Part shown: positions 29,075 to 59,218 of the stretch, piece by piece
How positions within the stretch are numbered: the stretch's first letter is position 1
Layout of the letters: each line of letters starts with the position of its first letter
Source of the DNA: an uncultured Desulfovibrionaceae bacterium
Lineage (GTDB): Bacteria > Desulfobacterota > Desulfovibrionia > Desulfovibrionales > Desulfovibrionaceae
NCBI GenBank assembly: GCA_944325195.1
Contig: CALUZB010000004.1
Span: 558,001 to 622,000, forward strand
Direction: 5' to 3'
DNA: 64,000 bases
Notes under the pieces: model-generated
Told to the model about the DNA's origin: nothing
The model's input: only the letters and a program-made list of their open reading frames with translations
The model's database searches: none
Position numbers and translations under genes: made by a program

Positions 29075-29721
29075 TGAATGATCTGCCCTGCTCTAATTTA
29101 ACTCTGCCACTTGTACTGATTGGGGGGGGCGGCCACTGCCAATCCTGCATAGATGTCCTGGAAGCTGCCGGTGGATTTGAAATAAAAGCTGTTGTAGATA
29201 AACCGGAAATGCTTGGAAAACAAATTTCAGGCTACCAAATTAACCATACTGATGAAGACCTGCCCGAACTTCTTGCCAAATATCAAAATACCCTGCTCTG
29301 CATGGGGCAAATAAAGTCTTCAGAACCCCGCCGCAGTTTATTTGAAAAGATTAAAGCACTGGGAGGAAATCTGATCACTCCTGTTTCTCCCCTTGCCTAT
29401 GTATCCCCAACAGCCCAATTGGGAGCAGGCACAATTGTCATGCACCATGCCCTGATCAATGCGGGAGCTCAAGTCGGATTCGGCTGTATCATTAACAGCA
29501 AAGCTCTGTTGGAGCATGGAGTGAAGGTTGAAAAACTCTGCCATATTTCAACAGGAGCCATCGTTAATGGGGGCAGTTTTATCGGCGAAGGCTGTTTCAT
29601 AGGCAGTGGGGCTGTAATTGCACATGGGATAACAGTAGGCCCTGGTTCAATAATAGGAGCCGGAGCCGTTGTTTTAAGCGACGTCCCTGAAGGGCATATT
29701 GTCCGGGATATCTGGAGATAA
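29074..29721 (+). CDS. NeuD/PglD-like sugar O-acyltransferase
   Basis: A 215-residue protein of the sialic-acid/bacillosamine acetyltransferase family. A small N-terminal Rossmann-like domain begins 'PLVLIGGGGHCQSCIDVLEA', the usual G-GGH loop. The C-terminal left-handed beta-helix is built of hexapeptide repeats ('SPTAQLGAGTIVMHHALINA', 'IGEGCFIGSGAVIAHG', 'VGPGSIIGAGAVVLSDVPEG'). It is expected to acetylate a UDP-sugar amine or hydroxyl for surface glycans. The GGGGH loop is encoded across eight consecutive G bases (29122-29129), a possible slippage site. The ATG overlaps the upstream stop. Confidence 0.87.
   Translation: MNDLPCSNLTLPLVLIGGGGHCQSCIDVLEAAGGFEIKAVVDKPEMLGKQISGYQINHTDEDLPELLAKYQNTLLCMGQIKSSEPRRSLFEKIKALGGNLITPVSPLAYVSPTAQLGAGTIVMHHALINAGAQVGFGCIINSKALLEHGVKVEKLCHISTGAIVNGGSFIGEGCFIGSGAVIAHGITVGPGSIIGAGAVVLSDVPEGHIVRDIWR
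29122..29129 (+). repeat. Poly-G tract (8 G) in the acyltransferase gene
   Basis: Eight G in a row encode part of the conserved IGGGGH loop, 48 bases into the gene, and are in frame as sequenced. A one-base change would truncate the protein at its start. The residues themselves demand G-rich codons, so this could be coincidental. Confidence 0.8.
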
Positions 29722-41925: not shown

Positions 41926-41961
41926 AAAAGTGGCGAAAAGGTATACCTTTTCGCCACTTTT
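41926..41961 (+). terminator. 36-bp palindromic terminator after the gyrA-TPR unit
   Basis: A perfect palindrome whose left half is AAAAGTGGCGAAAAGGTA; its own 3' end provides T4, followed by GTATT. It is a strong candidate terminator for the dnaA-gyrA-TPR cluster. Its core CGAAAAGGTATAC recurs at 42049-42061. Confidence 0.75.
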
Positions 41962-42046
41962 GTATTCCTAAGTCTTTGTTTTTTAATAACAGATAAATTC
42001 CTAGATTTCAAGTCTAAATCGAATATTTCCTAAGCCACTCTCTCCA

Positions 42047-42070
42047 GACGAAAAGGTATACTTTTTTGTC
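42047..42070 (+). terminator. Second hairpin sharing the CGAAAAGGTATAC core
   Basis: GACGAAAAG (42047-42055) pairs with TTTTTTGTC (42062-42070), with two G-U pairs, across a six-base loop. It repeats 13 bases of the terminator core 115 bases upstream and precedes the glycan locus. It could be a duplicated terminator that insulates the locus. Confidence 0.45.
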
Positions 42071-42132: not shown

Positions 42133-43339
42133 ATGAATTTAATTAAAATAATATGGAAGAAAAGTCCAAATTATATCAAAATGATATTTTTGCATATCTT
42201 GTGCTTTGTACGTCTGACTAAACGTAAAGAAGAAAAGACAGTCCCCACTGACGCGCCTGTATATATTTTCGGTTGTTTTCAGGCAGGGGGGGGGATTGTC
42301 GCGTTCTGCTGAATTATATGCGCAGCAACTTAAGAAAGCTCATCCCAACTGCATTCTGGTTGATACAACCAGAGAGTTGATGCTGGATGTCAGAAATTCC
42401 ATAACTGACGGTTCTATTCGTTTTGTAAGAGATATTATCAATGATTTTGGAACTGGAACCATTATTATTCACCACAATCCACCTGGTTTGCAGTGGTTGT
42501 TGTGTCGATTGGGTAGACAATTTCTTTATCACAAACGAATAGTTGCATACTTGGTATGGGAGTTGGAGGATCTCCCTTCCATTTGGAAGCATAGCCTACG
42601 CTTTGTTGACTGTGTGGAAACTCCAAGTACTTTTTCATATACGGCAATTGCGAGGAATACGCATAAAAGTGTCCTTGTACAACCACATCATGTGCCTGAT
42701 CCGTGCGGAGTAAAACAGGTATATTGTGTTGATGGCAAACTACGCTGTCTTTTTATATTTGATTTGGGCTCGCTCTGTTCCCGCAAAAACCCGGAAGCGG
42801 TCATTGAGGCATTTGTAAGCGCTTTCGCACCGGATGAGGGCTTACTTACAATAAAGATAGGTCAGCACATAACATATGCTCAAGATTTTGAGCGTGTTCA
42901 ACAACTAGCGGCCGGGCATCCCCATATCCGCCTGCTTACTGACTGGCTGGATGATAAGGCTCTGCACCGACTTTATCTTGAGCATGATGTTTATCCGTCA
43001 CTGCATCGCTCTGAAGGGTATGGACTGACCATCCGGGAGGCCCTGTTGCGCAAACTATATGTTGTAGCTACTGCATGGTCGGGAAATATGGATTTCATGA
43101 AAGGAGGGTTGGTTTGCCCGGTACCTTATAAATTGATACCGGTTGACAGGAAATATGCTGTCTTCAACGGTGTACCTCATGCCCGTTGGGCAGATCCGGA
43201 AATTCCGGCTGCAGCGGAAATTTTGCGGAAATTGCGGCGGCGTCTGTTCAATGGGGCTGTTGAGCTGGAAAAAGAGCATGATGTATTTGATGATGTTGTG
43301 TCGCCAGGCAAAGACGAACTGCAGAGGAGGTTTGCGTGA
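42133..43339 (+). CDS. Phase-variable GT-B glycosyltransferase, out of frame as sequenced
   Basis: The ATG at 42133 opens a frame (MNLIKIIWKKSPNYIK ... VYIFGCFQAGGG) that runs into nine G (42286-42294) and then stops at 42310-42312. The rest of the enzyme continues from 42296 in another frame. Removing one G gives a continuous ~401-residue protein with the junction FGCFQAGGGLSRSAELYAQQ, a normal GT-B N-terminus. The C-terminal half has 'LFIFDLGSLCSRKNPEAVIE' and 'YPSLHRSEGYGLTIREALL', the GT4-type donor-binding region with the conserved Glu. As sequenced the gene is probably OFF; 8 or 11 G would turn it ON. It is the first gene of the glycan locus. Confidence 0.85.
42286..42294 (+). repeat. 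Poly-G tract (9 G), likely phase-variation switch
   Basis: Nine consecutive G at codon 52 of the first glycosyltransferase gene. The downstream frame is offset by exactly one base, which is the pattern of a slipped-strand contingency locus. Confidence 0.85.
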
Positions 43340-45150
43340 ACACTCTCAGGCTGCTTTTTGCCGATTTCAAACGAATAAAGAGTGTATTGCCGGTCAGTTT
43401 GCGCCACTCAATTTCATGGCTGTTTATCGCCATGATTTTTTTGGGTGTTGTGGAGTTGTTAAGTATTATAGCTTTGACCGGTTTTTTCACTGTAGTAAAT
43501 GCGCCGGCCCAGGCAGTTTCCTCTAAATACGCTCAGAAGCTTTTGGATTGGCTGCCTTGGATTGAACCTGTATTTAGTGATCATCGCCGTCTTATTCTTT
43601 GGTCCTGCCTGCTTCCCATAGGGTTTATTGTGGGGAAAAATGCTTTTTCCGCCCTAGTGGCATGGCGTTCGGCTATCCTTGGCGAAAGGGTGGCTGCCTA
43701 TATAGGAATGAGCGCCATACGTTGTTTTTTGTATATGCCGTATAGCCAACATCTTACTGCTCAAGGCAGCCAGGCTCTTACCTGCATGCAGTGGCGGTTT
43801 AATTTAGGGCAATTGCTGCTCAACCTTATGCAGGCTTACAGCAACATTATTATTGTGAGCCTGCTGTTTTGCGGGCTGGCGCTTTATGAACCCGGCGTAA
43901 CCTTGTTTGGGGTAGCCTTCATGATAACCGCTTCCTGGACTGTATATTGCTTGTTACGCAAGCGGGTTGACCGGGCGTCTGAAACCGTGACCAGCGCTCA
44001 GCAAACAGAGAACTCAGCGAGCATAATCGCTATCAACGGGGTGAGGGAACTGCTTATTTATCAGCGGCAGCCCGCCTTTCTTGAGGAGATTGCGCGACAT
44101 ATGCGGGCCGGTATGCGGCCGCGCTCCTTTATAAATATCAGCCCAAACATACCAGCATGGGTGTTGGAATCCAGCGGTTTTTTTCTGATCTGGCTGGCCA
44201 TTTTTCTGCTGATTCATCTGAAAGATGCAAGTTTTACCGATATTACCACTACTGTAGCCATGCTTGTGCTTACGGCATGGCGCGTGCTGCCCTCGCTTAA
44301 CCGGGTGCTGGGAGCTACAGTTAATATCCGTGGTTTGCGACCCTCCGCCCTCTACTGCCTTGATTATTTTGAAAAGCTGAGCGCTGTTACGCCGGAAATT
44401 GCGGTTAAACCTGACCCTGATTTTAAAATCAACGGAGAGATCGTCTTTGAGCGGGTATCCTATCGTTATCCTGGCGCCGTATGCAATGCCCTCAGCAATA
44501 TCAATTGTCGTATCCCGCTTGGAGCCACTGTAGGTCTGGTAGGCCGTTCCGGTGCTGGTAAAAGTACTTTTATCAATATTCTGTGCGGGCTTCTGGAGCC
44601 AACTGAAGGCCGTCTGCTGGTGAATGGTCAACCCATGACATCTGCCGAATTGGCGGCCTACCGCAAGCAGTTGGGTTATGTTCCCCAAACGCCGTATCTG
44701 TTTTCCGGCACGGTGGCCCAGAACGTGGCTTTCAGCGAATGGGGCTCAGCCCCTGACATGGAAAGAGTGCGCCGCGCCTGTTGTGAGGCAGCCATTGATT
44801 TTCTGGGGCAGGATTGCGTGGAAGTGAACAGAACTGCAAGTGGGTTTTCTGGCGGGCAGATGCAGCGTATCTCCATTGCCAGAGCGCTTTACGTGAAACC
44901 GGCTCTGCTCATTTTTGATGAGGCAACCAGCGCGCTGGATCAGGCCAGCGAAGCAGCGGTGCAGGACGCCCTGCTTCATAACAAAGGCAAGCGCATCAGC
45001 GTAATTGCCGCTCACCGCTTGAGTACGCTGGAGGTGTGCGACACTGTACTTTGGCTGGAGGCCGGTACAATAAAGTATGCTGGAGATTACAGTAAAACAA
45101 TATCCGCATACAGAAAATCTATGGAGGATATCCTGTCAGATGAAGCATAG
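43336..45150 (+). CDS. ABC-type glycan flippase/exporter (PglK/MsbA-like)
   Basis: A 604-residue half-transporter: six membrane helices in residues ~30-320 followed by an ATPase domain. Walker A is 'VGLVGRSGAGKSTFINIL', the signature is 'FSGGQMQRISIARALY' and Walker B is 'LLIFDEATSALD'. The gene sits between a glycosyltransferase and GDP-sugar genes, so its likely substrate is a lipid-linked oligosaccharide flipped across the inner membrane (inference from context). The GTG start at 43336 overlaps the glycosyltransferase stop and has a strong GGAGG. Its end overlaps manC by 11 bases. Confidence 0.88.
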   Translation: MNTLRLLFADFKRIKSVLPVSLRHSISWLFIAMIFLGVVELLSIIALTGFFTVVNAPAQAVSSKYAQKLLDWLPWIEPVFSDHRRLILWSCLLPIGFIVGKNAFSALVAWRSAILGERVAAYIGMSAIRCFLYMPYSQHLTAQGSQALTCMQWRFNLGQLLLNLMQAYSNIIIVSLLFCGLALYEPGVTLFGVAFMITASWTVYCLLRKRVDRASETVTSAQQTENSASIIAINGVRELLIYQRQPAFLEEIARHMRAGMRPRSFINISPNIPAWVLESSGFFLIWLAIFLLIHLKDASFTDITTTVAMLVLTAWRVLPSLNRVLGATVNIRGLRPSALYCLDYFEKLSAVTPEIAVKPDPDFKINGEIVFERVSYRYPGAVCNALSNINCRIPLGATVGLVGRSGAGKSTFINILCGLLEPTEGRLLVNGQPMTSAELAAYRKQLGYVPQTPYLFSGTVAQNVAFSEWGSAPDMERVRRACCEAAIDFLGQDCVEVNRTASGFSGGQMQRISIARALYVKPALLIFDEATSALDQASEAAVQDALLHNKGKRISVIAAHRLSTLEVCDTVLWLEAGTIKYAGDYSKTISAYRKSMEDILSDEA

Positions 45151-46567
45151 CCCAGTTATATATCCTACAATCCTTTGTGGGGGAAGCGGAACAAGACTAT
45201 GGCCGCTTTCCCGCTACATGCACCCCAAACAGTTCATTGATATCGGCGGGGGAAAAAGCCTGTTCAGGGAGACTGTTATCCGCGCTGCCAGCTTGTATGC
45301 CGCCGGTGATATTTTCGTTGTCTGTAATAATGAGCATTCCTTCTACGTTAACAAATTTCTTTCAGAATGCCCGCTGCAAGGCCGGATTATTCTGGAGCCG
45401 GTTCCCAGGAACACGGCTCCCGCAATAGCGCTGGCCGCGCTGGCCGCTCTGGACAGAGCGGAAGGCAACAGCCCATTGTTACTTGTAATGCCGTCTGACC
45501 ATGCGATTGACGATGTAAATGCGTTCTCTGAAGGGGTAAAGCGCGCCGCCTGTTTGGCGGAGCAAGGCTATATTGCCACTTTCGGGGTTATTCCTGCCGG
45601 GCCTGAACCGGGATTTGGCTATATCAAGCAGGGAGACCCTATAGGAGAAACCGGTCATCTTGTGGCCCGATTTATAGAAAAACCGGATAGTACGCAGGCA
45701 AACGCCATGCTTGCTGAGGGCGGGTACCTGTGGAACAGCGGTATGTTTTTGCTGGATGCAGGGGTCTACCTTGAAGAGTTGAAAACCTATGCGCCGGATA
45801 TTTATGCCCGTTGTTCCGAAGCATGGAGTTTAAGACGGGAAGAGGGAGTGTTCATATGTCCGGATAAAGACGTTTTTATCCGCTCACCGGCTTTATCCAT
45901 TGACTACGCTGTCATGGAATATACCCGGCGGGCTGCTGTGTGCCCTTTAGATGCAAACTGGCGGGATATGGGATCTTGGGAAGCCTTCTATCAGGCTGGG
46001 AATAAAGACGCGCACGGCAATGTCTGCATTGGAGATATCCTGCCGGAAAACGTGGAGAACTGTTATCTGCACAGCACGCACCGACTCATTGCCGCCTCAG
46101 ACATAAAAGATCTTGTTGTAGTTGAGACACAAGACGCCCTTCTGATTGTCCCTCGCAACTCTGCCCAGAATGTGAAAGGAATTGTCGAGAAACTTAAATC
46201 AACCCGGCGCCGGGAATACAGACAGCATCAGCTTGTTCACAGGCCTTGGGGCAATTATGAATCACTTGCCGTTGGAGCTTATTTTCAGATTAAACGCATT
46301 ACTGTTAACCCCGGAGCGCAACTGTCGCTACAAAAGCACTACCACCGGGCAGAGCATTGGGTTGTGGTAAGCGGCACGGCGGAAATAACTAACGGTAAGG
46401 AAACACAGCTTTATACGGAAAATCAGTCTACATATATCCCCTTAGGAACTGTACACAGGTTGAAAAATCCAGGCCGGATTCCCCTTGTGGTTATTGAAAT
46501 TCAATTCGGTGCCTACCTTGGCGAAGACGATATTGTGCGCCTTGAGGATATTTATGGGCGTGCGTAA
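45140..46567 (+). CDS. manC: Mannose-1-phosphate guanylyltransferase / mannose-6-phosphate isomerase
   Basis: A type II bifunctional enzyme of about 475 residues. The N-terminal nucleotidyltransferase shows 'PTILCGGSGTRLWPLSRYMH' and 'PKQF', then 'LLLVMPSDHAI' and 'RFIEKPD'. The C-terminal cupin isomerase has 'VHRPWGNYESL', 'QLSLQKHYHRAEHWVVVSGT' and 'YIPLGTVHRLKNPGRIPL'. It makes GDP-mannose, the substrate of the next gene product. ATG 45140 is chosen because the protein then begins with the conserved motif; an upstream TTG would add 21 residues. It overlaps the flippase gene. Confidence 0.95.
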   Translation: MKHSPVIYPTILCGGSGTRLWPLSRYMHPKQFIDIGGGKSLFRETVIRAASLYAAGDIFVVCNNEHSFYVNKFLSECPLQGRIILEPVPRNTAPAIALAALAALDRAEGNSPLLLVMPSDHAIDDVNAFSEGVKRAACLAEQGYIATFGVIPAGPEPGFGYIKQGDPIGETGHLVARFIEKPDSTQANAMLAEGGYLWNSGMFLLDAGVYLEELKTYAPDIYARCSEAWSLRREEGVFICPDKDVFIRSPALSIDYAVMEYTRRAAVCPLDANWRDMGSWEAFYQAGNKDAHGNVCIGDILPENVENCYLHSTHRLIAASDIKDLVVVETQDALLIVPRNSAQNVKGIVEKLKSTRRREYRQHQLVHRPWGNYESLAVGAYFQIKRITVNPGAQLSLQKHYHRAEHWVVVSGTAEITNGKETQLYTENQSTYIPLGTVHRLKNPGRIPLVVIEIQFGAYLGEDDIVRLEDIYGRA

Positions 46568-46595: not shown

Positions 46596-47630
46596 GTGAA
46601 AACAGCTTTGATTACTGGAATTACAGGACAGGACGGTTCTTATCTTGCGGATTTGCTCCTTGGAAAAGGCTATACTGTTTACGGGGCTTATCGCCGTACC
46701 AGTACACTGAACTTCTGGCGCATTGAAGAGTTGGGTATCATAAACGATCCTAAGCTGCATTTAGTTGAGCATGATCTGATGGATTTCAGCAGCAGCATAC
46801 GCATGTTGGAAAATGCGCAACCGGATGAAGTCTATAATCTTGCAGCTCAGAGTTTTGTGGGGATCAGCTTCAAACAACCTGAACTGACAACCTCTGTAAC
46901 TGGAATTGGTGCTTTATATCTTTTAGAGGCTATTCGCTTGGTTAATCCAGCCATCCGATTTTATCAGGCCAGCACCTCAGAGATGTTCGGCAAGGTGCAG
47001 GAAGTGCCGCAGACGGAGTTGACACCGTTTTATCCGAGAAGCCCCTATGGCATAGCCAAACTGTATGCCCACTGGCTGACCATCAATTATCGTGAAAGTT
47101 ACGATATTTTCGGCTGTTGCGGGGTGTTATTTAACCATGAATCTCCTTTGCGCGGGGTTGAGTTCGTGACTCGTAAAATTACTGAGGCGTTTGCCAGGAT
47201 TAAGCTTGGACTACAGGAATATCTGGAACTGGGCAATCTCAATGCTATTCGTGATTGGGGTTTTGCCAGGGACTACGTTGATGGAATGTGGCGGATGTTG
47301 CAACAGAATAAGCCGGACACTTATGTTCTAGCTACTGGCAGAGCACATAGCGTTAGGGATTTCGTCAATCTGGCTGCTAATTGTATCGGGATGGAGCTGG
47401 ATTGGAGGGGTGAGGGAGAAAATGAAGTTGGGGTTGATAAGGCGACTGGCATTGTCCGTGTGCGGATCAACCCCAAATTCTATCGCCCGACCGAAGTGGA
47501 TATGTTAATCGGCAATCCTGAAAAAGCAAGGCGTGAACTCGACTGGAAGTCTTCAATAACCCTTGAAGAGCTGTGCAGAATGATGGTTGAGGCTGATCTT
47601 TCCAGAATAGCTCCCACATATAAGGTATAA
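46596..47630 (+). CDS. gmd: GDP-mannose 4,6-dehydratase
   Basis: A 344-residue extended SDR enzyme. The N-terminus '[20 protein letters not shown]' followed by '[11 protein letters not shown]' is the classic Gmd start. The catalytic triad region is '[20 protein letters not shown]' and '[20 protein letters not shown]' (YxxxK), and '[12 protein letters not shown]' is the family hallmark. It converts GDP-mannose to GDP-4-keto-6-deoxymannose, the precursor of GDP-fucose, GDP-rhamnose, GDP-perosamine and others. GTG 46596 is preceded by AAGGA. It follows manC, and an Fcl-like gene lies downstream. Confidence 0.96.
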
Positions 47631-47632
47631 AT

Positions 47633-48925
47633 ATGAAAGCTCTCCGTCGGTTGGTATATAGTGTATTTGATGCCTTTCCCATCTTACTCCGGCTGAGTGC
47701 CTTTATTCTATTTAGGTTGGACCCGCTGCCCAGATTGAGGCGTAAATATGCGAAACCAGGGGGGGCTTTGCCGAGGAGAAGGCAGCTCCTGCTTGATATC
47801 AGCAGATTGGCTGAATACGATGCGAAGACTGGCATTCAGCGCGTAGTGCGCAGCATTTCGCATGAACTTATTTACCATCCGCCGGAAGGGTATGCTGTAT
47901 ATTTTGTCCGCTCGTCAGATACGAAGGATTGCTATGTTTATGCTCATCATGCGGCGTTAAATATTTTCGGGTATGACGACGGGCTGAAAGAGGATGCAGT
48001 AGTCCGTTATTCGGAAGGAGATATCTTTATTGGGTTGGATTTATCATGGTTAACAATTCCGCTTGGAAGATATTTTCTGAAAGACGTACGGAATTTGGGC
48101 GTCAGAATATACTTTTGTGTATATGATTTGATTCCTGTTCAGTATCCGGAATATTCCCATATCGGCTCTAAAATCTGGTTCTATTATTGGCTTGACACCA
48201 TAACTGGGTTTGACGGGGCACTTTGCATCTCAAAAAGCACTGCTGACGCGCTGAAGAATTGGATGTCGAAAAACTGCCCGGAACGCTTGGAAAAGCTGAA
48301 AATCTCCTGGTTCCATCTGGGGTGCGATATTCAGCAGTCAGTTCCAACCACGGGCTTGCCCCAGGATTCGGAATTTTTTCTTGCTCATATGGGGAAAGCG
48401 CCTTCGGTTCTCGTAGTCAGCACTATCGAGCCGAGAAAGGGATATGGGCAGATTCTGGCGGCATTTGAATACTTGTGGGAAGAGGGCATCAACGTTAATT
48501 TATTTATAGTTGGAGTGACTGGCTGGAAAGTTGGTGCTTTAATAAAAAAAATCAGCAATCATCCTGAAAACGGAAGGCGTTTGTTTAAGCTGGAAAAGGT
48601 TTCAGATGAGTTTTTGGAAAGACTTTATGATAAGGCTGCCGCAGTGCTAATGGCTTCTGAAGCTGAAGGGTTCGGCCTTGCTGTTGTGGAGGGAGCTATG
48701 CACGGCAAGCCGCTCATTCTCAGAGATATTCCTGTTTTCAGAGAAATTGCTGGCGATAATGCTTTCTATTTCAAGGGACACGACCCCGCTGCTCTAGCCT
48801 GTGCTATTAAGGGTTGGCTTTTGCTCTACCGGAACAACAGCGAGCCGTCATCTGAAAATATAAACATTTTAACTTGGAAAGAAAGCGCAAATATGTTGAT
48901 GAAAAATATCTTAAACCAGAATTGA
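47633..48925 (+). CDS. GT4-family glycosyltransferase
   Basis: A 430-residue GT-B enzyme. After a basic N-terminal extension, 'RRQLLLDISRLAEYDAKTGI' begins the catalytic fold, a start typical of mannosyl- or fucosyl-transferases in O-antigen loci. The donor-binding half has 'VLVVSTIEPRKGYGQILAAF' and 'AAVLMASEAEGFGLAVVEGA' with the conserved E-x7-E. The linkage made cannot be told. It begins three bases after gmd's stop. A seven-G tract (47759-47765) in the codons for KPGGAL is in frame as sequenced. Confidence 0.88.
   Translation: MKALRRLVYSVFDAFPILLRLSAFILFRLDPLPRLRRKYAKPGGALPRRRQLLLDISRLAEYDAKTGIQRVVRSISHELIYHPPEGYAVYFVRSSDTKDCYVYAHHAALNIFGYDDGLKEDAVVRYSEGDIFIGLDLSWLTIPLGRYFLKDVRNLGVRIYFCVYDLIPVQYPEYSHIGSKIWFYYWLDTITGFDGALCISKSTADALKNWMSKNCPERLEKLKISWFHLGCDIQQSVPTTGLPQDSEFFLAHMGKAPSVLVVSTIEPRKGYGQILAAFEYLWEEGINVNLFIVGVTGWKVGALIKKISNHPENGRRLFKLEKVSDEFLERLYDKAAAVLMASEAEGFGLAVVEGAMHGKPLILRDIPVFREIAGDNAFYFKGHDPAALACAIKGWLLLYRNNSEPSSENINILTWKESANMLMKNILNQN
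47759..47765 (+). repeat. Poly-G tract (7 G) in a glycosyltransferase gene
   Basis: Seven G near codon 43 of the GT4 gene, in frame. It is shorter than typical contingency tracts but lies in the same locus as the 9-G and 11-G tracts. Confidence 0.8.
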
Positions 48926-48935
48926 GGGTGCCGTC

Positions 48936-49874
48936 ATGTTTGTTAAAAATGCTAGAATTCTTATAACTGGAGCCGGTGGGCTGTTGGGTCATGGAATCAT
49001 CCAGGCATTGAATTGGCTGGGCAGAGAAGACCTGAGGCTTCTCTGCCCGTCAAGGCAGGAAATGGACTGCCTTGAGTATGCCTCTGTTGAAAAGTTTTTT
49101 CAGGAAAACTCTCCGGACTATGTTATTCATCTGGCGGCCGGTGTATTTGGATTAAAGGGGAACCTTGATAACCAGCTGGGCATTCTTTCGAAGAATTCCA
49201 TTATCAATCATAACATATTGGTGAATTCCGCAAAAATCCCTGTGAAGAAAATTTTTTTTGCCGGAAGCGTCGCCTCCTACTCCTTTCCATATGCCATATT
49301 GCCCTTAAAAGAGGAACATCTTCTGGATTCTTATCCGCACTGGGGCGAATTCGGATACGCAATGTCAAAAATACATGCACTTGCTTATCTGAAAATTTTG
49401 GAAAATGACTATTCTATACCGTATACCTACGCCTTGTTTACAAATTTATACGGACCGTATGACAGATTCAACAAAGAAAACGGGCATGTTATCCCAAGCC
49501 TTATCTGCAAGGCAATCAGCGCGGTAAAGGAAAATAGACCCCTGCCGGTATGGGGCACCCCCGGGACTACAAGAGATTTCCTACACAGCCATGATGCAGG
49601 AATAGCGGCAATATTGGCTTTTCGCAAGTTTGACGGAATAATCAACATTGCAAGTGGAACGGAAGTGAAGATGGAACGGCTTGCAAGAGTTGTGGCTGAT
49701 AATTTCGGATTGAAAGATATAGAGTGGCAGGTAAGTCGGCCTGTAGGAATTCCTCGGCGTTCGGTGGATATCGGCAGGTTGAAGAATCTTGGGTTTGAGC
49801 CGCAGTATGATCTGGAAACGGGAATTGCGGATACCGTCGCTTGGGTTAATAATAATCCGAACCTTCGGACATAA
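48936..49874 (+). CDS. GDP-L-fucose synthase-like NAD(P)-dependent epimerase/reductase
   Basis: A 312-residue SDR protein. 'ARILITGAGGLLGHGIIQAL' is the nucleotide-binding start, 'VIHLAAGVFGLKGN' resembles the Fcl/WcaG family, 'FAGSVASYSFP' and 'YAMSKIHAL' supply the catalytic Ser and YxxxK, and 'TNLYGPYDRFNKENGHVIPS' is a strong Fcl-like stretch. With Gmd two genes upstream it would produce GDP-L-fucose or a related 6-deoxyhexose. It is more divergent than typical Fcl, so another 4-keto-sugar reductase is possible. A GAGGG site precedes the ATG. Confidence 0.78.
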   Translation: MFVKNARILITGAGGLLGHGIIQALNWLGREDLRLLCPSRQEMDCLEYASVEKFFQENSPDYVIHLAAGVFGLKGNLDNQLGILSKNSIINHNILVNSAKIPVKKIFFAGSVASYSFPYAILPLKEEHLLDSYPHWGEFGYAMSKIHALAYLKILENDYSIPYTYALFTNLYGPYDRFNKENGHVIPSLICKAISAVKENRPLPVWGTPGTTRDFLHSHDAGIAAILAFRKFDGIINIASGTEVKMERLARVVADNFGLKDIEWQVSRPVGIPRRSVDIGRLKNLGFEPQYDLETGIADTVAWVNNNPNLRT

Positions 49875-49893: not shown

Positions 49894-51111
49894 ATGAAAA
49901 AAATAGGGATCGTAAGCAGCTTCAGCGATACATGCGGGAATGCATCTTATACCAGAGCGCTGGCCGCAGGGCTTTTTCGGCGTGGGTATGAAGTAAAGAT
50001 ATTTGATCTGCGGCAGGATTTGATGCAGGGCAGAGGGAGGTATCTGAAAAGGCTGGGAGACAACCTGATATCTGAGATAACTGAAGAGGTAAAGCAATGT
50101 GATGCTGTGAATATCCAATGGGAGTACGGCCTGTTTGGATGCACTCATAGCGACATAAAAAACAGGATCCTGAAACTTCTGAAACACCTGAACAAAAATT
50201 TATCCGTTACTCTTCATCGTGTGGACACATACTGTGATGTAAAGGAGCCCTTGAAAAAGTTGGTTCGAGGGCGCGTGGTTAATGCTCTTAGAGGTTTTAA
50301 GGAACAGTACCACCTCTACAGACGGATTGGCCTGACCGGGGAGATTTTGGCTCAGATAAGCGAGAAAAAAGGAAAGGCTATTGTCCACAGCAATAAAGAT
50401 TATTATTCAGCGCTTTCTTTCGGATGTAATGACAAGAGCGATATTATCGTGCATCCCCTGTGTTTTTATGAACACCATACCAGAAATGAGAATGACCTCA
50501 GCGTTAAAAGGTCTCTTCTGGAGAGGTATAGATTGAGCAATGATTCTATTATCATCGGGCTTTTCGGCTTTATCACGAAATATAAAAATTATGAAACAGC
50601 CTTGCGCGCATTGGCTCTGCTTCCTGATATTTATAAAATTATTATTGTAGGCGGGCAGCATCCAGTCGGAATCGCTACAGAGCCAAACGGAGCGGACTAT
50701 ATCAGGAAATTGAATGGCCTGATTCGCAGTCTGAACCTGTGGGGCCGGGTCATTTATTGCGGAGTGCCGGAAACTGATGATGAGATGGTCAGTTATATCC
50801 GTCTATGTGATCATGTTGTTCTTCCTTACAATGAGGTCGGGCAGGGGGGGTCAGGTATTGCCGCTGTCGCCCTTGAAAACAATCTTAACGTGCATCTGGC
50901 AAGAAACTACTGCTTTCTTGAGTTGAAAAAGTTTTTCAATGATTCATTTAAAATGTTTGATATTTCCAATGAAGTGGAGCTGATGCAGAACATTATTTCT
51001 TTAGAGCAGAGTCCGGCTACGGTCCAGCCGGAATGGTCATACAATATAGAAACAAACATTAACACATATTTAATATCCATGAGGTTGACAGATGACAAAG
51101 AAAAAAGCTGA
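49894..51111 (+). CDS. GT-B glycosyltransferase
   Basis: A 405-residue glycosyltransferase. It begins 'KIGIVSSFSDTCGNASYTRA' and has the donor-site region 'IIGLFGFITKYKNYETALRA' followed by 'HVVLPYNEVGQGGSGIAAVA'. It probably belongs to GT4 or a relative; the acceptor is unknown. Seven G (50844-50850) encode the QGGS stretch and are in frame here; a one-base slip would remove the C-terminal quarter. AGGTGAAAGG precedes the ATG. Its end overlaps the methyltransferase start by 20 bases. Confidence 0.82.
   Translation: MKKIGIVSSFSDTCGNASYTRALAAGLFRRGYEVKIFDLRQDLMQGRGRYLKRLGDNLISEITEEVKQCDAVNIQWEYGLFGCTHSDIKNRILKLLKHLNKNLSVTLHRVDTYCDVKEPLKKLVRGRVVNALRGFKEQYHLYRRIGLTGEILAQISEKKGKAIVHSNKDYYSALSFGCNDKSDIIVHPLCFYEHHTRNENDLSVKRSLLERYRLSNDSIIIGLFGFITKYKNYETALRALALLPDIYKIIIVGGQHPVGIATEPNGADYIRKLNGLIRSLNLWGRVIYCGVPETDDEMVSYIRLCDHVVLPYNEVGQGGSGIAAVALENNLNVHLARNYCFLELKKFFNDSFKMFDISNEVELMQNIISLEQSPATVQPEWSYNIETNINTYLISMRLTDDKEKS
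50844..50850 (+). repeat. Poly-G tract (7 G) in the second intact glycosyltransferase gene
   Basis: Seven G within the codons for GQGGSG, near residue 318, in frame as sequenced. Confidence 0.8.
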
Positions 51112-51862
51112 TTTCATGACGAGAGAAGAAATTCTGATCAGAGATTTGCCGCTGGATGGCCCTGGTCTGGAAATTGCCCCTTTGTTTAGGCCGACCCTGG
51201 AACGCAACCGCTACGATATTTATTATTGCGATTGCTGTCCAGCTGAAGAAAGTCGTAAAAAGCATAAAGGATACGACCATGAAGATATTGTGGATATTGA
51301 CTTTATCTGGACTCCCGGGACAAGGCTGTGTGATGCAGCACCGAAGGGGATTAAGTTTAATTATGTGATTGCCAGCCATGTCATTGAGCATGTCCCAGAT
51401 CCTGTAGGGTTTATACTGGACATCTTCGAAGCTATGCGGGGGGGGGGGATACTCTCGCTCGCAGTACCGGATAAGAGAAAGTGTTATGATTATTTCCGAA
51501 GAGAAACTGATGTTGCGCAACTGGTGCATAATTTTATGAATAAAATCACAATACCCAGCACCGAACAGATATTTGATTTTCTGACCAATAACATTGATAC
51601 CAGCTATAATCAGCCTTGGCTAACAGGCGAAAAATTTGAGGAATGCAAGCGCTGCTATACGGATGAGCAGGCTCTCAGCTTTTGCAGGCATGTATTGCTA
51701 ACCGGGCAATATTTAGATGTCCACTGTTCTGTGTTTACTCCAGATGGATTTTTCAAAAACTTCAGCAAGATTATTGAGCTTGGGATTATAAGTAACGCCA
51801 AGATTCATGAACCGTACAGCGGAGACGGGGAATTTTTCTGTAAGATAGAAAAGACAGCGTAA
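51092..51862 (+). CDS. SAM-dependent methyltransferase of the glycan locus
   Basis: A 256-residue class I methyltransferase. 'GPGLEIAPLFRP' is motif I, 'DIVDIDFIW' follows, and 'YVIASHVIEHVPDPVGFILD' then 'IFEAMRGGGILSLAVPDKR' is the typical motif IV-V region. It resembles enzymes that modify sugars in capsule and O-antigen loci; the exact substrate is unknown. The RGGG turn is encoded through 11 consecutive G (51438-51448), in frame as sequenced, so the gene appears to be ON. It overlaps the upstream glycosyltransferase by 20 bases. Confidence 0.83.
   Translation: MTKKKADFMTREEILIRDLPLDGPGLEIAPLFRPTLERNRYDIYYCDCCPAEESRKKHKGYDHEDIVDIDFIWTPGTRLCDAAPKGIKFNYVIASHVIEHVPDPVGFILDIFEAMRGGGILSLAVPDKRKCYDYFRRETDVAQLVHNFMNKITIPSTEQIFDFLTNNIDTSYNQPWLTGEKFEECKRCYTDEQALSFCRHVLLTGQYLDVHCSVFTPDGFFKNFSKIIELGIISNAKIHEPYSGDGEFFCKIEKTA
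51438..51448 (+). repeat. Poly-G tract (11 G) in the methyltransferase gene
   Basis: Eleven consecutive G, the longest homopolymer seen in the window, encode MRGGG near codon 116. In-frame lengths would be 8, 11 or 14; any other length truncates the enzyme before its C-terminal half. Confidence 0.9.
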
Positions 51863-51935: not shown

Positions 51936-52106
51936 ATGCGTGGTATCTTAAGTATTCTTGAAATTAACCTTGGTCGAATGGCCCTGCGCCATAATTTTAT
52001 TTGGTTGGATCTGGCTAGGGTGCTGTTGATTTTCCTGGTTGTTTATGCCCATTTTTGCAGCGTTGGAGGTTTTGTGTGGGATTTCCCCGGATTTGTTGGG
52101 GGATGA
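51936..52106 (+). pseudogene. N-terminal remnant of an acyltransferase-3 protein
   Basis: A 56-codon fragment ending at TGA 52104-52106. 'RHNFIWLDLARVLLIFLVVY' followed by AHF resembles the first membrane helix and catalytic-His region of AT3/OafA-type O-acyltransferases. The rest of the gene (about 300 residues) is missing, and a transposase remnant starts at the next codon, so the gene was probably disrupted by an insertion. It would have been the last, glycan-acetylating gene of the locus. Confidence 0.65.
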
Positions 52107-52451
52107 TGTTCACCTTCATCAGCAGATTGCAAACAGGTAGTCGCCCTGATTGATGGCTTTTGCGCCCAGTATTTTTTGGCGGATCGTGGTTATGATACCG
52201 ATGAGATACTTGATCAATCCCTGGAACGGGGAATAACGCCTGTTATCCCTCTTCGGAAGAACCGAAAAGAGCAGCGTAAGTATGATAAAGAGCTTTATCA
52301 AGCTCGGCATCTGATAGAAAATGCCTTTCGCCATTTGAAAGAATGGCGAGGAATTGCGACGAGATATGCTGAAAATACGCTATCATTCCTTGCCCTATTC
52401 ATATTAGGTGCATTCTTCTTTGGGCTTCAATCTCGTGACTACACACCCTAG
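52107..52451 (+). mobile_element. Remnant of an IS5-family transposase gene
   Basis: The 114-codon open stretch from 52107 encodes the C-terminal part of an IS5-type DDE transposase: 'CKQVVALIDGFCAQYFLADR', 'GYDTDEILDQSLERGITPVI', 'KYDKELYQARHLIENAFRHL' and 'KEWRGIATRYAENTLSFLAL'. The second Asp (ADRGYD) and the Glu (ENAF) of the catalytic triad are present; the N-terminal half with the first Asp is gone. No clear terminal inverted repeats were found, so it is a dead fragment. Confidence 0.85.
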
Positions 52452-57218: not shown

Positions 57219-59218
57219 ATGAATAAGCCTGCAGACAGACTTAATTACCGTCCGGACATAGATGGTCTGCGCGCCTTGGCTGTAGGCTTTGTTGTCCTGT
57301 ACCACGCCTTTCCCGCTTCATTCAGCGGCGGGTTTATCGGGGTGGACATATTTTTTGTGATTTCGGGTTTTCTGATCGGCGGGATCATTCTGCGGGGGTT
57401 GTCCACTAACAGTTTCAGCCTATTGCATTTTTATTCCCGGCGGATTTTGCGGATTTTCCCGGCGCTGATCCTGGTATTATGCACAGTGTTGCTTGCCGGG
57501 CATATTCTGCTTTTCCCTGATGAATATCGGGCGCTTGGCAAGCATACAGCAAGCGGGGCCGGATTTATTGCCAATCTGGTCTACTGGTCCGAGGTCGGTT
57601 ACTGGGATGTAAGCGCTAAGTTGAAACCTCTGCTGCACCTTTGGAGTTTGGGGGTTGAGGAGCAGTTTTACATCGTCGCCCCACTGCTGCTGCTTACAGC
57701 CTGGAAAAAGAAATACCGGCTCTTGACTATAATTGTTTTATTGCTGCTTGCTTCCTTGGCCCTGAATCTGCATTTTTATCGCCGGGATCCGGCGTTGGAT
57801 TTTTATGCGCCGCTTACCCGTTTCTGGGAAATTTTCATTGGGGTCGGTCTGGCCGCTCTGAAGGAATACGCTGGGCGAATGGGCGCGGTCTGGCTGAAAT
57901 TGGATTACGGCCTTGCCAAGGTGCTGCGAACGGACGCGGTTCCGAGTGATGGAAGTTATGCGCGTAACCTGCTTTCCTTGCTTGGGCTGGGGGTTGCCTT
58001 GTGGTTGGCTTGTGCGCCTGCCGTGTGGATGAGAATTTCCCCGGCCATCGGGCTTTGTGGCCGACTATTGGGGCTTTGCTGATTATTGCGGCTGGTCCGC
58101 ACAGTTGGTTGAACCGGCGGCTTTTTTCCAACAAACTTGCAGTGGGCACAGGTCTGATCAGTTATCCGTTGTATCTGTGGCACTGGCCGTTGCTCTCCTA
58201 TGCGACTATTTTGGGTGGTGAGTATGCCGGTGTATGGGAATGGCGGCTTATTCGCCTGTTCTGCGTGCTGATAGCTTTGGTGTTGGCGGCAGCAACCTAT
58301 TTTCTGGTTGAGCGCCCTATTCGTTTTGGACCGGGAAACAAAAAGCTTAAGACTTGTGCTTTGATTTTACTGATGTCTGCTGTTGCAGGGCTGGGGCTGT
58401 ATGTATTTGAACGTGGTACACCAATGCTTTCAAACAATTTTCAGGAACAACTGGATGCGTTGAATCTCCCCCCCATATAAAGATGACAGCATCAATATGA
58501 TTCAAATGCCTATGCTCTACCCTGTGCACGTTACCAGGATGCTGAATCGGACAGAACTGTAGCTGTTATTGGCGACAGTCACGCGTTTGCAGCTTTTCCC
58601 GGTATATCTGAAAAAAATAAAGCTCTTGGTCTGAATACTGTTTTATTAGGAATTAGCCATAATTTTGCTGAAAATGATCAGTTACTTGTGCTCAACACCC
58701 TGAAAAGCAGGCAGGATATCTCTTGTATTTTTGTTTTATTCCGCGGAGAGGGTTACCTTACCGGAAGGGATCTTGATTGGGGTGGCGGTCATAACTTCTG
58801 GGGGGATGCCCCGAGAGGAAAATTCAAACCTTTCTTGCAAAATATTGTTGATGAGATGAACAGCGTAGGGAAGCAGGTTTATATTGTCAGCGAAACCCCG
58901 GTCTTCCCATGGCAGCCGCGCGATTTTATCCATCGCCCGTTTAGTTTTAACTCACAGGAAACCCCTTCTGTCTTACTTAAAGATGATGTATATAAGCATC
59001 AAAAAGAATATCTGGATATGCTGGCAGAAATTAAGGGCGCGGAAATCATCAACGGCATGGATGCTCTTTGCCCCAACGGCGAATACCCGATGTTTGACAC
59101 AAACAGAATGCCGCTGTACTTTGATGATGACCATCTTTCTGTTTACGGCAGCCACTATCTGGTTAAAAATCTGCTGGAACCGTATTTAATTGGTATTGCC
59201 GGACAGGCGGAGCAGTAA
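57219..59218 (+). pseudogene. Frameshifted OafA-type acyltransferase (AT3-SGNH)
   Basis: Pieces in two frames together make a normal ~660-residue O-acyltransferase. 57219-58082 has 'YRPDIDGLRALAVGFVVLYH', 'GGFIGVDIFFVISGFLI' and 'LKPLLHLWSLGVEEQFYIVA'. About 58001-58480 continues one frame away with 'AVGTGLISYPLYLWHWPLLS'. About 58500-59218 holds the SGNH hydrolase part with 'VAVIGDSHAFAAF' and 'YFDDDHLSVYGSHYL'. At least one base is missing near 57990-58020 (a G5 run is nearby). One extra C in a C7 run (58468-58474) and one lost base near 58498 would explain the second break. GGAGG precedes ATG 57219. It is either a decaying gene or contains sequencing errors. Confidence 0.85.
58468..58474 (+). 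repeat. Poly-C tract (7 C) at a frame break
   Basis: Seven C at the point where the acyltransferase frame is lost. Six C would continue as LPPYKDDSIN, but a second shift about 25 bases later is still needed to join the SGNH half. Confidence 0.75.

Follow-up and report, generated by a model that had tools for sequence, protein, structure and literature searches.

A glycan operon of an uncultured Desulfovibrionaceae bacterium with a putative invertible promoter and two long G tracts

Poly-G contingency genes of Campylobacter include SAM-dependent methyltransferases (PhasomeIt, PMC6321876), and the methyltransferase of the HS:19 capsule cluster has a poly-G/C tract (PMC8743553). In Bacteroides fragilis, the tyrosine recombinase Tsr19 inverts a promoter in front of a large-capsule glycosyltransferase (PMC3090145), and the pili of Bifidobacterium breve are under control of a G11 slippage switch whose length varies within a culture (PMC9187656); in that species, mixed lengths were found though the reference shows one. 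Our literature search for Desulfovibrio together with homopolymeric phase variation returned only a Campylobacter genome comparison. The window analysed in this work, 64,000 nucleotides from an uncultured Desulfovibrionaceae bacterium (genome G000) whose gene order suggests a Desulfovibrio-like organism, has a GDP-mannose-type glycan operon with a glycosyltransferase gene (GT1) at its head and a methyltransferase gene (MT) at its end. Its genes and the two longest G tracts are, in window positions:

42133..43339, + strand: GT1 glycosyltransferase, first gene of the operon, with a +1 frameshift at its G9 tract (Glycos_transf_1, E 1.3e-5; 71% to the orthologue in G001, a genome of the same genus)
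42286..42294, + strand: G9 tract of GT1, which leaves the gene out of frame in silico (orthologue L225/L226 intact at that place)
43336..45150, + strand: ABC transporter, best NCBIfam match of the PglK/MsbA type, below cut-off (79% to G001)
45077..46567, + strand: mannose-1-phosphate guanylyltransferase / mannose-6-phosphate isomerase (TIGR01479, 623 bits)
46596..47630, + strand: GDP-mannose 4,6-dehydratase (TIGR01472, 471 bits)
47633..48925, + strand: GT4-type glycosyltransferase, G7 run at 47759
48936..49874, + strand: NAD-dependent epimerase, GDP-fucose-synthase-like
49894..51111, + strand: second glycosyltransferase, G7 run at 50844
51092..51862, + strand: MT, class I SAM methyltransferase of 256 aa that closes the operon and is in frame with 11 G (Pfam Methyltransf_23; 96 homologues)
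51438..51448, + strand: G11 tract, encoding R116 (part)-G117-G118-G119 of MT

Genes outside this set show features of their own. Right behind MT lies a truncated Acyl_transf_3 fragment (51975-52451) followed by an apparent transposase remnant, and an OafA-like acyltransferase gene (Acyl_transf_3 plus SGNH; 57219-59218) is split into three frames, with a C7 run (58468-58474) adjoining its second break. A G8 run (29122-29129) sits in a NeuD-like acetyltransferase within a glycine-rich IGGGGH motif, where Gly codons are expected.

Two G tracts in the first and last genes

Run counts and the open reading frame (51092-51862) agree with the initial annotation, which had seen an 11-G tract at 51438-51448, in frame and the longest homopolymer of the window. 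The tract has exactly 11 G and is read ATG CGG GGG GGG GGG ATA (M-R-G-G-G-I); after it in length come G9 at 42286 and G8 at 29122, and A or T runs of at least 9 do not occur within the window. Surface-modifying genes with an intragenic tract of at least 7 G include MT (G11) and GT1 (G9). In silico, 8, 11 and 14 G leave MT frames open over 255, 256 and 257 aa and the remaining lengths between 6 and 15 G run into a stop at 125-149 aa, so over this range a one-base change moves MT from full-length to truncated. The view that 8, 11 and 14 G would all give full-length protein therefore stands as far as open frames go, but not for the turn that the tract encodes, since this is free of gaps in all 96 homologues and only 11 G retains the family spacing, 8 and 14 G subtracting or adding one residue. 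Because turn length is constant across the family, G11 is probably the sole normal ON length of MT. The homopolymer length itself may be an assembly error.

MT matches Pfam Methyltransf_23 with 31.3 bits, above the cut-off of 27, and has weak matches only among solved structures; NCBIfam offered no family for it, the phage collection no match, and a single-protein search of genome contigs no relatives. A profile search of genome contigs gave 80 loci, and the alignment at the tract site comprises 80 homologues from named genomes plus 16 from relatives and plasmids (n=96). With the Methyltransf_23 match and the neighbouring glycan genes, the initial assignment as a methyltransferase in a glycan operon is borne out; judging by this neighbourhood, MT would methylate the glycan. 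Residue 119 is Gly in 94/96 homologues and residue 118 in 58/96, and residue 117 is Gly in 0/96, being mostly P, D or E. Within the matched gene region, G runs stay at 6 or below in every homologue (0/96 above 6), and the tract neither recurs nor shows conservation among them, recurrence being typical, albeit not strictly defining, of contingency genes. In this comparison of homologues at the Gly residues of the tract, which had been suggested, the tract is unique to the MT of the window.

How far the tract exceeds chance was judged from the decay of G-run numbers with length, measured in 2.08 Mb (84%) of the genome and scaled to its 2.48 Mb in 27 contigs. Expected are about 8-11, 2-3 and 0.4-0.6 G runs of at least 9, 10 and 11 in the 2.08 Mb, and 2-3 runs of at least 10 and about 0.5-0.8 of at least 11 in the 2.48 Mb; observed in the whole genome are 21, 10 and 4. 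Two of these last four, G13 (end of L044, G000 C1) and G22 (end of L060, G000 C20), were set aside as likely poly-G sequencing artefacts owing to their location at contig ends. G-tract numbers across the genome are near chance with a mild excess at 10 and above, in part made up of such contig-end artefacts. Tract length alone is accordingly weak evidence, and 11 G by itself is only mildly unexpected for this genome. Among ORFs of at least 250 aa in 84% of the genome, which hold 306 Gly-Gly-Gly tripeptides, MT is the sole case of three consecutive GGG codons. Synonymous resampling of 17 window genes produced a run of at least 11 in 34 of 2000 trials (1.7%), and with the codon use of the window, R-G-G-G would be spelled CGG GGG GGG GGG with a probability of about 1.4e-3. 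The genome has mutS and mutL (MutS, MutL), in which it is unlike poly-G-rich Campylobacter, and no G tract is common to an orthologous site in G000 and G001. With both repair proteins present and one genome per species covered, switching of MT by poly-G slippage is plausible but unproven.

At the other end of the operon, 8 G in silico give a GT1 of 401 aa and the 9 G of the assembly give 59 aa. The G001 orthologue, assembled over two contigs that share 141 identical bases, is full length and reads A-G-G-G-L-S-R-S via GGC GGG GGG TTG at this site, a frame equivalent to G8 in the window; its longest G tract there is G6. Compared with this orthologue in another species, the assembly frame differs by +1, and with the intact gene as reference we concur with the previous notion that the first glycosyltransferase is OFF by frame. 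Downstream of the tract, identity to G001 is 71%, with pN 0.165 and pS 0.79. A mis-called start was rejected on the grounds that homology to G001 extends over the N-terminal as well as the downstream part and that the downstream frame is conserved. For the same reasons the assembly does contain a frameshift in GT1, which would be either recent or an assembly error.

An inverted-repeat element upstream of GT1

Upstream of GT1, the window has an element with these parts:

41932..41955, no strand: left inverted repeat GGCGAAAAGGTATACCTTTTCGCC of the putative invertible promoter
41983..42011, - strand: promoter-like TTGAAA-17-TATTAA with TG extension, a consensus match facing away from GT1 (presumed OFF)
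42047..42070, no strand: right inverted repeat GACGAAAAGGTATACTTTTTTGTC, 115 bp from start to start

Both repeats are near-palindromes and flank what, by consensus match only, is an extended -10 promoter; TTGAAA-17-TATTAA is the strongest promoter-like match inside the element. Set against each other, the two repeats show 4 mismatches in inverted and 4 in direct orientation, the symmetric core being uninformative. Further copies occur in the genome (G000 C3:95494-95632, C10:48262-48400 and C25:12281-12417, with spacings of 115, 115 and 113), and in G001 the element is also found upstream of GT1, with a spacing of 114. A gapped pattern of the repeat pair matched in 11 of 288 family genomes (G000, G001, G101, G105, G137, G145, G148, G223, G225, G226, G227) while the reversed pattern, run as a control, matched 3 times in 2 genomes. 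Among the 25 elements from these 11 genomes, all pairs with asymmetric cores have them in inverted order (GT...AC etc.), with one partial exception (G000 C10); symmetric cores, the window's own included, are uninformative.

In the sister genus g54, about 20 bp separate the element from the tyrosine-recombinase genes that follow it (Pfam Phage_integrase), and adjacent genes of this kind allowed us to orient paralogous copies for comparison. Inner segments of G223_C53 and G223_C140 reach 91% identity only if one of them is inverted, and their gene-side flanks are colinear at 93% identity; likewise, those of G226_C4 and G226_C9 are 95% identical only if inverted, with colinear flanks of 86% identity. 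Homologous elements in G223 and G226 thus occur in both orientations, these being paralogues at loci other than that of the window. Since paralogous inner segments match only when flipped while the gene-side flanks stay colinear, there is strong sequence evidence that this type of element undergoes inversion.

Elements are found upstream of autotransporter genes (L274, L277), and the G000 copies on C3 and C25 precede a GT4-flippase-GT2 operon and a sulfatase-domain (EptA-like) gene, respectively. By consensus matches, the promoter points toward the operon at G000 C3 and away at C25, in G001 and in the window. The fourth element of the genome (L239, G000 C10:48262-48400) lies near a contig end without a clear target gene, and its inner segment matches the window copy best in inverted orientation. 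Pairs of AAAARGYNNRCYTTT about 115 bp apart may serve as a compact, searchable signature of switchable surface operons in the family.

As for the recombinase, 84% of the genome was searched and holds one tyrosine recombinase of the family (C3:36269-37375) and no other close members. Between it and a lipoprotein-like gene lie two perfect inverted repeats of 25 nt, spaced by 159 bp, and because these repeats differ from those of the window, the enzyme may not be cognate to the latter. This locus (L336, 16269-17375 and 17434-17617, i.e. G000 C3:36269-37617), with the recombinase and its repeats before the lipoprotein-like gene, which has a poly-Gly stretch, is probably a second, different inverton. 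In other genera, the GT1 homologues L200 (G115) and L201 (G110) have a tyrosine recombinase of the same family just upstream and inverted repeat pairs nearby, 123 and 117 nt apart.

Switch states, rival readings and known systems

Our findings may best be explained by an invertible promoter and slippage switches at G9 and G11 that act on one envelope-glycan operon, a model which we hold with middling confidence. The first switch would be the promoter in front of GT1, which a tyrosine recombinase would flip at the two inverted repeats and which, facing away in the assembly, would leave the operon OFF. Slippage by one G in either direction within G9 would determine whether GT1 is made (ON at G8) and within G11 whether methylation of the glycan takes place (11 G being ON); both tracts are probable further switches. 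In other words, promoter inversion is probably how the operon switches, the G tracts may add second switches, and the putative invertible promoter is a stronger sign of operon phase variation than the poly-G tract. That the promoter (all-or-nothing) and the G tracts in GT1 (backbone) and MT (decoration) are three independent stochastic switches, in a lineage with mismatch-repair genes, is an option we put forward tentatively. If true, site-specific inversion and replication slippage would meet on one operon and provide several heritable glycan states per strain.

Since the putative promoter faces away, the whole operon is probably silent in the assembly, with GT1 OFF by frame as well, and MT would be in frame yet probably not transcribed; an internal promoter may drive MT. 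For this reason, MT ON while GT1 is OFF, which the initial annotation had taken for one of several combinatorial glycan states, is not a demonstrated state.

A reading that we take quite seriously, though we would not call it probable, accepts the invertible promoter and sees both tracts as unselected, the glycine turn having gained G11 by chance and GT1 its frameshift by ordinary mutation or assembly error. It draws on the 0.5-0.8 runs of at least 11 G expected against 2 found outside contig ends, on the presence of MutS and MutL, on MT homologues and a G001 GT1 without long tracts, so that the tracts are not conserved, and on a nearby surface gene that has two breaks and no obvious switch. 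It is harder to reconcile with two long tracts in one surface-gene operon, of which one is out of frame by exactly one G, and with a G11 that demands a residue used by no homologue. This same residue speaks against the idea that the tract is maintained since the protein requires Gly-Gly-Gly at the turn: while Gly119 and, in 58 homologues, Gly118 fit such a need, Gly117 is absent from all 96 and the all-G spelling has a chance of only about 1.4e-3 under window codon use, which makes this account very improbable indeed.

Inversion itself would be dispensed with if the paired dyads were operators of a regulator, about 11 helical turns apart. Near-palindromic sites and a spacing that is strongly conserved in the genome (113-115 bp) would suit such operators, but in nearly all pairs the two sites carry their asymmetric cores in opposite orientation, paralogues have flipped inner segments next to a colinear gene side, and the neighbour genes in the sister genus are tyrosine recombinases. 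Given the inverted cores and flipped inner segments, we have put the operator interpretation aside as unlikely.

Among known systems, Campylobacter resembles the window in having intragenic poly-G of at least 7 in a surface-modifying enzyme and frame switching by one G (here in silico), and methyltransferases and glycosyltransferases are its typical carriers. Unlike in Campylobacter, tracts are few in the window's genome, MutS and MutL are present, homologues are tract-free, and length variation is putative. So the proposed parallel with its capsule methyltransferases extends to mechanism rather than to relatedness. With B. breve, the window shares a G11-type tract on whose length the frame in a surface operon depends; gene type and phylum are different, and switching is experimental there and proposed from sequence here. 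As in B. fragilis, inverted repeats surround a promoter, the glycan operon starts with a glycosyltransferase, the assembly has the presumed OFF orientation and the recombinase family is the same, albeit repeat sequence and lineage differ, the window repeats are near-palindromic, and inversion as well as a cognate recombinase are putative. Taken together, the window seems to combine features of poly-G methyltransferases from Campylobacter with those of promoter inversion in B. fragilis.
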